Assembly: GCF_008042275.1 (NCBI RefSeq)
Contig: NZ_RDBK01000043.1
Coordinates: forward strand, 2,568,914 to 2,632,913
Direction of reading: 5' to 3'
Length of the DNA stretch: 64,000 bases
Source of the DNA: Streptomyces sp. OR43
Lineage (GTDB): Bacteria; Actinomycetota; Actinomycetes; Streptomycetales; Streptomycetaceae
Within the stretch, counting starts at the first letter, position 1. Each line of letters starts with the position of its first letter. The notes under the pieces are model-generated. The model had not been told where the DNA came from and did no database searches. It saw only the letters and a program-made list of their open reading frames with translations. A program made the translations under genes and the position numbers. Of the stretch, positions 20,177-22,076 are shown piece after piece.

Positions 20177-21340
20177 ATGTCTTTCCGTCCCTCGTACCGC
20201 CGTGTCTCCCTCCGCACCGCCGTCGCCGCGGCCGCACTGGGAGGCGCCGTCCTCGTCCCGGCCACCGCGGCCTTCGCCGACACCGTCCCGGCCACGCCGG
20301 CCGGTCAGGGACAGCAGGCCACCGACGACGGCACGCCGGTCCACACCGACGAGCTCGAGGGCGGACTGACCGCCAAGGTGTACAAGCACGGTGATCAGCA
20401 CGTCTATTACACGGCTGAGGTGCTCGACGGTGCGAAGGTGCTGGGGGTTCTGACCGCGGGTGGCGGTTACGCCCCGGAGGAGAGCAGGGTCTTCGGTAAC
20501 GGGATCAAGGTGACGCTGGACTTCACGGGTGCGGTGACGTCCGTCGTGGACGCGGGCAGCGACGGCCAGGGCCCCGTCACCCCGGCGGGCGTGCTGGTCC
20601 ACACCGACGAGCTCGAGGGCGGTCTCACCGCCAAGGTGTACAAGCACGGTGATCAGCACGTCTATTACACGGCTGAGGTGCTCGACGGTGGGAAGGTGCT
20701 GGGGGTTCTGACCGCGGGTGGCGGTTACGCCCCGGAGGAGAGCAGGGTCTTCGGTAATGGGATCAAGGTGACGCTGGACTTCACGGGTGCGGTGACGTCC
20801 GTCGTGGACGCGGGCAGCGACGGCCAGGGCCCCGTCACCCCCGTCGAGTGCGTCGCCACGGTGACGAAGAGCATCGGGGCCGGCACCCTGGCCGAGTTGA
20901 GCATCAGCCCGTCGGGCCCGTCCGTCGTCTTCCAGGGCGACGACGGCAAGGTCCTCGGCCAGCTCTCCCGGCTCCACCCCGAGCTTCCGGCGAGTGCCGG
21001 CTTCCTCGGCGAGATCATCAACCCGAGCAGCGCCGCGCCGCAGCTGCGCACCAACATGGAGGGCGGCGGCCACCCGGCGTCCGTCACGGACTTCCCGAAG
21101 CTGCCCGAGGGGTGCAGCTTCATCTACGCCACGACCTCGGGCAACAGCACCTCGGGCACCGGCACCCAGACGCAGACCACGCAGACGTCCGTCGTCCCGA
21201 AGGGCAGCGTCGCCGCCGGTGCCGAGTTCGAGCAGAACGGCAGTCCGGTACTGATCGCCGTTGGCGGTGCGGCAGCGGTGGGCGCGGCGGGCCTCGGTTT
21301 CGTCCTCCTGCGGCGCCGCGCGGCGGTGTCCGGCCGCTGA
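20177..21340 (+). CDS. cell-wall-anchored repeat protein, class F sortase substrate
   Basis: A 387-residue exported protein. Signal peptide residues 1-35 end in AFA. Two near-identical 86-residue repeats follow (residues 55-140 and 141-224, opening VHTDELEGGLTAKVYKHG), then a unique domain (VECVATVTKSIGAG to EGCSFIYATT, two Cys). The C-terminus has a VVPKGSVAAG motif, a hydrophobic helix and an RRR tail, the layout of a sortase sorting signal. The function of the repeats is unknown. A class F sortase gene lies 94 bases downstream, so it is the probable anchoring enzyme. RBS CGGAG precedes the ATG at 20177. Confidence 0.82.
   Translation: MSFRPSYRRVSLRTAVAAAALGGAVLVPATAAFADTVPATPAGQGQQATDDGTPVHTDELEGGLTAKVYKHGDQHVYYTAEVLDGAKVLGVLTAGGGYAPEESRVFGNGIKVTLDFTGAVTSVVDAGSDGQGPVTPAGVLVHTDELEGGLTAKVYKHGDQHVYYTAEVLDGGKVLGVLTAGGGYAPEESRVFGNGIKVTLDFTGAVTSVVDAGSDGQGPVTPVECVATVTKSIGAGTLAELSISPSGPSVVFQGDDGKVLGQLSRLHPELPASAGFLGEIINPSSAAPQLRTNMEGGGHPASVTDFPKLPEGCSFIYATTSGNSTSGTGTQTQTTQTSVVPKGSVAAGAEFEQNGSPVLIAVGGAAAVGAAGLGFVLLRRRAAVSGR
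20339..20844 (+). repeat. two tandem 258-bp repeats in wall-protein gene
   Basis: Units begin at 20339 and 20597. Over about 248 bases I count only four to five differences (for example ACTGAC/TCTCAC, GCG/GGG, AAC/AAT), including at synonymous sites, so the duplication is recent or kept identical by recombination. Confidence 0.85.
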
Positions 21341-21375
21341 CCGGCCGGGCCGCTCGTCCCGTCGTCCCACGTCAG

Positions 21376-21410
21376 GGGAGGGGCCGTCGCACCGTGCGGC
21401 GGCCCCTCCC
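21376..21410 (+). terminator. hairpin between wall protein and sortase genes
   Basis: GGGAGGGGCCG (21376-21386) pairs perfectly with CGGCCCCTCCC (21400-21410). It may attenuate read-through from the abundant substrate gene into the sortase gene. Confidence 0.65.
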
Positions 21411-21434
21411 GGTTCCGCCTGCCGGGAGTCCCGT

Positions 21435-22076
21435 ATGCGCATCCCCCTCGCCCGTCGCCTGCTGGCGGGCCCGCTCGTCGCCCTCCTCTCCGCCGCCGCA
21501 CTGACCGGCTGCGCCTCGGGCGACGGTGCCCCTGCCACCCCGCCCGCGCACATCGCGGCCCCGCCCGGCGCGCCGGCCACACCCGCGCCGGCCACACCCG
21601 CGCCGGCCACGTCCGCCGCCCCGCTGCCCGCCTCCGAGCCGGTCCGGGTCCGTATCCCGTCGGCGGGCATCGACACCGGCCCCGTCCTGAAGCTGGGTCT
21701 GGCGTCCGACGGCACCGTCGAGGTCCCGTCCGTGGCGCAGGCGGACCGGATCGGCTGGTACACCAAGGGCGTCACCCCCGGAGAGACCGGGCCCGCCGTC
21801 CTCATCGGGCACTTCGACACCTCCGAGGGTCCCGCCGTCCTGAAGAACGTCTCGAAGATCGTCGCCGGTGACCGCATCACCGTCACCAGGGCGGACGGGT
21901 CCGATGCGGTGTTCGCCGTGCGACGGCTCCAGCAGGTCGACAAGGGCGCCTTCCCGACCGACGAGGTCTACGGCGACACCACCGGCCCCGAGCTGCGGCT
22001 GATCACCTGCGGCGGCGAGCTGAGAGGCGGCCACCGGCCGGACAACATCATCGTCTTCGCGGAGCTGGTGAGCTGA
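21435..22076 (+). CDS. class F sortase
   Basis: A 213-residue sortase. The leader ends in lipobox-like AALTGCASG, followed by a Pro/Ala/Thr linker with three copies of a PATPA unit, then a sortase barrel beginning VRVRIPSAGIDTG. The catalytic His is in VLIGHFDTSEGPAVL, the Cys in LITCGGEL and the Arg downstream in the GGHRPDNIIVF segment. Class F sortases of actinobacteria anchor proteins to the wall; the repeat protein just upstream is the likely substrate. The ATG at 21435 starts right before the leader. It lies 94 bases from the upstream gene with a hairpin between. Confidence 0.88.
   Translation: MRIPLARRLLAGPLVALLSAAALTGCASGDGAPATPPAHIAAPPGAPATPAPATPAPATSAAPLPASEPVRVRIPSAGIDTGPVLKLGLASDGTVEVPSVAQADRIGWYTKGVTPGETGPAVLIGHFDTSEGPAVLKNVSKIVAGDRITVTRADGSDAVFAVRRLQQVDKGAFPTDEVYGDTTGPELRLITCGGELRGGHRPDNIIVFAELVS

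Follow-up and report, generated by a model that had tools for sequence, protein, structure and literature searches.

The role of class F sortases is called unknown in the available text of two studies (PMC13251363, PMC6998099), and the closest described systems differ in how their substrates are marked. The class F sortase of Cutibacterium (Propionibacterium) acnes, which belongs by name to the same class as the enzyme described here, was reported to read LPXTG in the part of PMC13257024 that was available, so that not every class F sortase need use the signal discussed below. The class E system of Streptomyces (SrtE1, SrtE2 and the chaplins) is likewise actinobacterial, with a non-LPxTG signal in a three-part tail (available text of PMC5148588), but that signal is L-A-x-T-G and is unlike the substrate presented here. 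In Actinoplanes missouriensis, AMIS_11010 and AMIS_36440, encoded beside srtF1 and srtF4, were suggested as possible substrates and, like ours, combine a signal peptide, a C-terminal helix and a basic tail with a neighbouring class F sortase. The same 2026 study searched six patterns, reported no pentapeptide in either protein and set both aside, and its quadruple class F deletion gave no phenotypic change (PMC13251363). Searches built on LPXTG-type signals miss likely class F substrates, as these two Actinoplanes proteins illustrate.

A signal of another kind has already been modelled in NCBIfam as NF058571, GVDTG_CTERM (GVDTG sorting domain), with a description line that makes no mention of class F; the link to class F drawn here rests on gene order. 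Our literature search, whose coverage left out most subscription papers, returned no paper linking this signal to class F sortases, and none of the papers containing 'GVDTG' was about sortases by title. The signal has a database model but seems scarcely known in the literature, and it may already be in print elsewhere.

A class F sortase gene and its upstream partner

The window, a stretch of 64,000 nt from a 9.1 Mb genome of the genus Streptomyces, carries on its forward strand a gene for a C-terminally anchored repeat protein, followed by a hairpin and a class F sortase gene, in the arrangement that an earlier note on this DNA had described. We think it very likely that the two genes form a dedicated class F sortase–substrate pair with a divergent GVDTG-type signal. 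The features of the pair are:

20177..21340, + strand: substrate gene, 387 aa, secreted and C-terminally anchored repeat protein (open reading frame; 17 further orthologues aligned)
20177..20278, + strand: probable Sec signal peptide, residues 1-34, with AFA at its end (read from the sequence)
20330..20583, + strand: repeat 1, a beta module (model strands within residues 56-124)
20588..20841, + strand: repeat 2, a beta module, DNA 97% identical to repeat 1 (model strands within residues 139-210)
20855..21091, + strand: third beta module, residues 227-305 (high-confidence model)
21182..21226, + strand: conserved sorting-signal block QTSVVPKGSVAAGAE, residues 336-350 (invariant positions in 18 orthologues)
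21197-21220, + strand: core PKGSVAAG of the sorting-signal block (predicted cut A347/G348; register suggested by APxTG forms)
21248..21319, + strand: C-terminal hydrophobic helix and RRR (sequence; model helix 366-385)
21376..21410, + strand: intergenic hairpin in the substrate/sortase gap, possible attenuator (hairpin search; counterparts at orthologous loci)
21435..22076, + strand: class F sortase gene, 213 aa (NF033748; predicted sortase fold)
21501..21512, + strand: lipobox LTGC of the sortase, residues 23-26 (sequence)
21810..22046, + strand: active-site span with H126 (21810-21812), C192 (22008-22010) and N204 (22044-22046) (conservation)

The substrate starts with a probable signal peptide, continues through the two repeats and the third beta module into a low-complexity stretch, and closes with the block QTSVVPKGSVAAGAE, a hydrophobic helix and RRR; its C-terminal sequence reads ...QTSVVPKGSVAAGAEFEQNGSPVLIAVGGAAAVGAAGLGFVLLRRRAAVSGR; the tail VVPKGSVAAG, helix and RRR given in the earlier note are thus all present. 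Within the signal peptide, R9, R13, G23, P28 and A34 are invariant in the 18 orthologues, some of which have hand-chosen start codons. The two direct repeats of 254 nt, at a spacing of 258 nt, are 97% identical and encode 82-aa stretches that differ at a single residue, indicating either recent duplication or repeats that are kept alike; the closest orthologous protein (62% identity) aligns with the beginning of one repeat only. Three beta modules were predicted in the structure (mean pLDDT 69.6), with the sorting motif in a low-confidence stretch just ahead of the helix. The third module might have been a further, diverged copy of the repeats, but its similarity to them is not significant, as 78 of 1000 shuffles scored as high. 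The substrate had no match above any cut-off in Pfam and NCBIfam and a best E of 0.76 against PDB sequences, and for the ectodomain all 50 Foldseek matches listed had TM-scores of 0.17 or below and no VIA-align 2 match reached a Z of 8. Neither LPxTG nor LAxTG occurs in the sequence, whose ending the earlier note had called unlike such signals: the LPXTG anchor family PF00746 scored 14.2 bits against a cut-off of 20, TIGR01167 (LPXTG anchor) returned no match at E up to 1, and the LAXTG ahead of the helix that marks class E substrates is absent.

The product of the downstream gene scored 190.9 bits against the class F model NF033748 (E = 1e-56; cut-off 166), and about 21 bits against class D and E models, far under their cut-offs (20.9 against 160 for NF033747, class E). 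Its predicted structure (mean pLDDT 86.0) has a sortase fold and, together with conserved His and Cys residues, fits membership of class F; Foldseek gave 118 matches at E <=0.001, the 50 best of which were all sortases, with class C sortases heading the matches listed at a moderate similarity (TM about 0.5). H126, C192 and N204 are invariant across 56 aligned class F sortases (55 of 68 references plus the sortase of the window), and in a wider alignment of 73 they are retained in 72, 72 and 69 sequences, respectively. N204 would be the position equivalent to the catalytic Arg, in agreement with the available text of PMC6998099, according to which Asn replaces this Arg in actinobacterial class F sortases. 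All 19 sortases that cluster with this enzyme at 70% identity show a lipobox pattern, as do 35 of 163 in the whole collection, and the enzyme is probably lipid-anchored through Cys26. Class F matches above the cut-off occur in 290 of 295 Streptomyces genomes, and the enzyme of the window, with a predicted transpeptidase activity, probably attaches proteins to the cell surface.

In the gap between the genes, the strong hairpin has 17-nt arms that are 94% complementary, and the region 21335-21440 folded as RNA gave z = -2.26. It lacks a T run, and a terminator scan yielded no site. Stems of at least 11 pairs were present at 15 of 18 orthologous loci, compared with 10 of 1800 shuffles, and the hairpin sequences differ between loci. 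It is plausible that the hairpin is an attenuator keeping the enzyme scarce relative to its substrate.

Taken as a pair, the two genes suggest the following mechanism. The signal peptide would export the substrate, and the C-terminal helix and RRR would hold it in the membrane, where the class F sortase, outside the membrane and probably tethered by a lipid at Cys26, would recognise P-K-G-S-V-A-A-G. By analogy with LPxTG sorting, Cys192 would cut between A347 and G348 and hand the protein to a cell-wall precursor, and the beta modules would thereby be displayed at the surface, with the hairpin probably allowing more substrate than enzyme to be made.

Conservation of the proposed signal among orthologues

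Within the sortase cluster at 70% identity, 18 of 19 loci have a C-anchored gene upstream. The 18 orthologous substrates, picked by their sortase and not by their motif, have a mean column identity of 28%, yet Q-T-x-V-x-P-x-G-x-V-A-A-G-x-E is invariant among them (Q336, T337, V339, P341, G343, V345, A346, A347, G348 and E350). A search of 101 Streptomyces genomes found 19 close sortase orthologues (E up to 1e-60) in 17 genomes, and a match to the orthologue tail profile lay 45 to 258 nt upstream of the sortase match in 16 of the 19, some of these genomes probably overlapping the rows from which the profile was made. The other three (in genomes G039, G048 and G012) had no adjacent tail match, and the sortase frame of G039 contains a stop. 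Tails in this search mostly carry VAAG, with VKAG or VDAG in three (L255, L257 and L263). Similar tails also occur without a sortase in the fetched flanks, such as VVPKGGVKAG in L258 to L262, suggesting that some sortases may serve several substrates.

The genome of the window itself encodes further tails of this kind, PSGGVHTGGG (L214, G000:C79:2865894-2866028, adjoining a masked stretch) and PNGPVDAGDG (L219, G000:C79:2351087-2351269), neither of them close to a class F sortase listed for this genome.

Compared with GVDTG_CTERM, the substrate tail shares the layout of P-x-G-G-V-x-T-G, a helix and a basic tail, and PKGSVAAG followed by the helix and RRR fits the looser form P-x-G-x-V-x-[TA]-G; it departs from the model in reading S-V-A-A-G-A-E with no subsequent G-G, and it scores 14.7 bits, below the cut-off of 29. 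The model weakly matches 10 of the 18 orthologous substrates (E up to 0.05), that of the window not being among them. It also matches 28 of 47 partners of class F sortases, which were chosen for bearing the motif, the model itself having been made independently; in controls it matches at most 1 of 40, in a family scan showing 25 of 175 families.

The proposed signal across class F loci

Most of the 163 class F loci in our collection belong to Streptomyces or to other taxa of the same class, and the collection is biased to high-scoring sortases; it was reduced from 169 sortase-matching loci (of 172 searched) by removing L002 (33.6 bits), L124 (88.6 bits) and the duplicates L005-L008. A C-anchored protein with helix and basic tail is encoded upstream on the same strand at 127 of these loci and divergently at 15 more. 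When points were drawn at random from comparable genomes, 450 of 10,000 (4.5%) had a same-strand C-anchored protein. At the remaining 21 loci our filter found no such neighbour; some of these are contig edges or hold the motif in a form that the filter missed, and others show none.

The earlier note had proposed aligning the C-termini of proteins encoded beside class F sortases, and had named the absence of a conserved C-terminal motif among them as the outcome that would refute its reading; the comparison did not give that outcome. Among the 142 neighbours, 109 match the strict pattern P-x-G-x-[VPAMI]-x-[TASG]-G, as against 0 of 40 control C-anchored reading frames, a rough set in which some frames are transporter-like and others unlikely to be real. 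For a weaker motif that omits the proline, the counts are 119 among the 142 neighbours and 5 among the 40 controls. No neighbour has LPxTG and a single one has LAxTG (controls: 0/40 and 1/40). With each sortase cluster at 70% identity counted once, 57 out of 72 had a C-anchored neighbour, and 38 of these 57 showed the strict motif, an excess over the 40 controls with a Fisher p of 5e-13. Of 57 neighbours from outside the genus, 42 carry it. Because the strict pattern was composed after the tails of both groups had been viewed, a blind motif finder was run to answer this bias. Trained at a width of eight on 23 genus neighbours taken without regard to any motif, it arrived at P-x-G-x-V-x-[A/T]-G. 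Beyond the genus, this learned motif gave 20 of 34 neighbours a higher score than any of the 40 controls reached (Mann-Whitney p 1e-10). Words unlike the motif came from 3 to 5 tails of the training set of 23 and from some of the outside tails.

Counts from six whole Streptomyces genomes were lower: of their 40 class F sortases, 17 have a neighbour with a strict match, 14 one with only a loose core, two a motif-less neighbour, and seven no neighbour that we could find. Among these seven, L116 has the tail PSGAPDTG downstream, L083 has the motif without a helix, and L060 lies at the edge of its stretch. The loose core, [VPAMIQ]x[TASG]GxG, devised for variants such as VRAGGGG, was set aside as evidence, as it matches 8 of 40 controls and falls at an unlikely position in L067 and L068. 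In the genome of the window, two further class F sortases (L118 and L119) had no C-anchored neighbour that our search could find. The blind test and the whole-genome counts pull in opposite directions on the dedicated-pair reading and leave our confidence in it where it was.

From these tails, the wider signal reads P-x-G-x-[V/P/A/M]-x-[T/A]-G, in many cases with x-G-G after it, and many of the class F sortases examined seem to use it in place of LPxTG. The suggestion in the earlier note that this pair could define a class F sorting motif is supported, with corrections. The wider motif recurs beside class F sortases, with strict matches beside fewer than half of the sortases in the six whole genomes, and VVPKGSVAAG itself is limited to one orthologue group; as the general signal is already modelled as GVDTG_CTERM, the pair is not the first to define it. 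The signal might fill the pentapeptide gap of the Actinoplanes neighbours. Now that a signal, a cut site and gene pairs can be proposed, the substrates of class F sortases are open to direct test, and class F sortases could supply ligation enzymes of new specificity.

Register of the predicted cut and competing explanations

Several partners carry A-P-x-T-G, one change away from L-P-x-T-G: PAGAPKTGGGG (L141), PTGAPATGLGG (L149) and PAGAPQTGAGG (L129). Aligned with PKGSVAAG, these forms make S-V-A-A-G the counterpart of L-P-x-T-G, and the enzyme would then cut between A347 and G348. Another register, in which the enzyme reads V-P-K-G-S, with V-P-x-G taken like L-P-x-T, and cuts after G343 instead of before G348, would account for the resemblance of V-P-K-G-S to L-P-x-T-G around the proline and for the invariance of P341 and G343 in the 18 orthologues. 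We judge this register unlikely, since across 47 partner tails both the residue preceding the proline and the one after the first glycine vary (the latter being S, A, G, H, P or others), the final glycine is the sole invariant column among these rows chosen for having the motif, and the A-P-K-T-G and A-P-A-T-G forms have their proline and threonine where LPxTG has them. The two partner alignments of 47 rows (A1 and A2) were drawn from 57 cluster representatives by selection for the motif and are no test of it: seven rows were removed manually, one for its masked motif and six in which no motif was clear, and four by script, at least three of these visibly motif-bearing, after which the substrate of the window was added.

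Two further explanations dispense with wall sorting by this signal or alter its product. The substrate could be a plain C-tail-anchored membrane protein whose motif is a structural linker, with the sortase acting on other, LPxTG or LAxTG, proteins; the motif does lie in a low-confidence model stretch directly ahead of the helix, and class E type signals (LAETG) are found elsewhere in the same genome, for example at L172 and L205. A linker would not be expected to be better conserved than all the rest of such divergent proteins, nor to be so enriched beside class F sortases by both the strict pattern and the blind finder, where LPxTG and LAxTG are no commoner than in controls; moreover, the motif ends the protein with no helix at all at two or more loci (L025 and L158), and we hold this explanation to be very unlikely. 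Class C sortases polymerise pilins, and the near-identical repeats of the substrate, with class C sortases at the top of the fold-match list, could suggest that the enzyme likewise polymerises the repeat protein instead of attaching monomers to the wall. Its family is class F, however, and the likeness in fold to class C is moderate, making polymerisation very unlikely in our estimate. A dedicated class F sortase attaching its adjacent substrate thus remains our preferred reading.

Variants of the signal and of its bearers

As a tentative extension, doubtful at present, actinomycete class F sortases as a group might be built on their own signal, P-x-G-x-[V/P/A/M]-x-[T/A]-G with the cut before the last glycine, usually with a private adjacent substrate and clade-specific codes (here VAAG together with a lipid-anchored sortase), and with a subset in which the signal stands at or near the C-terminus of a helix-less protein. 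The motif without a following helix was found within the last 30 residues of L025:3630-4919 (Lolliginicoccus levis), L158:3123-4532, L083:2117-3139 and L154:2-241, with tails such as ...MPAGGVETGAGGAVK and ...LPQGGVATGGGGLVR; L025 and L158 are clearly helix-less signal proteins, L083 and L154 (a short frame at a contig edge) less surely so. In L025, the first 13 positions of GVDTG_CTERM land on MPAGGVETGAGGA, below the cut-off. All four neighbouring sortases bear a lipobox by pattern, and the L158 protein has a lipobox-like N-terminus itself, which could allow a single sorted protein to span membrane and wall.

At L061, L067, L068 and L101, a divergent neighbour on the opposite strand has a tail like [RN]GA[LQ]GG[LI]GGS without P-x-G, possibly another variant of the code. 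The ectodomains of the partners are very diverse (L164 and others), with CHRD domains in 5 of 47, DUF4397 in 2 of 47 and an ice-binding domain in 1 of 47.
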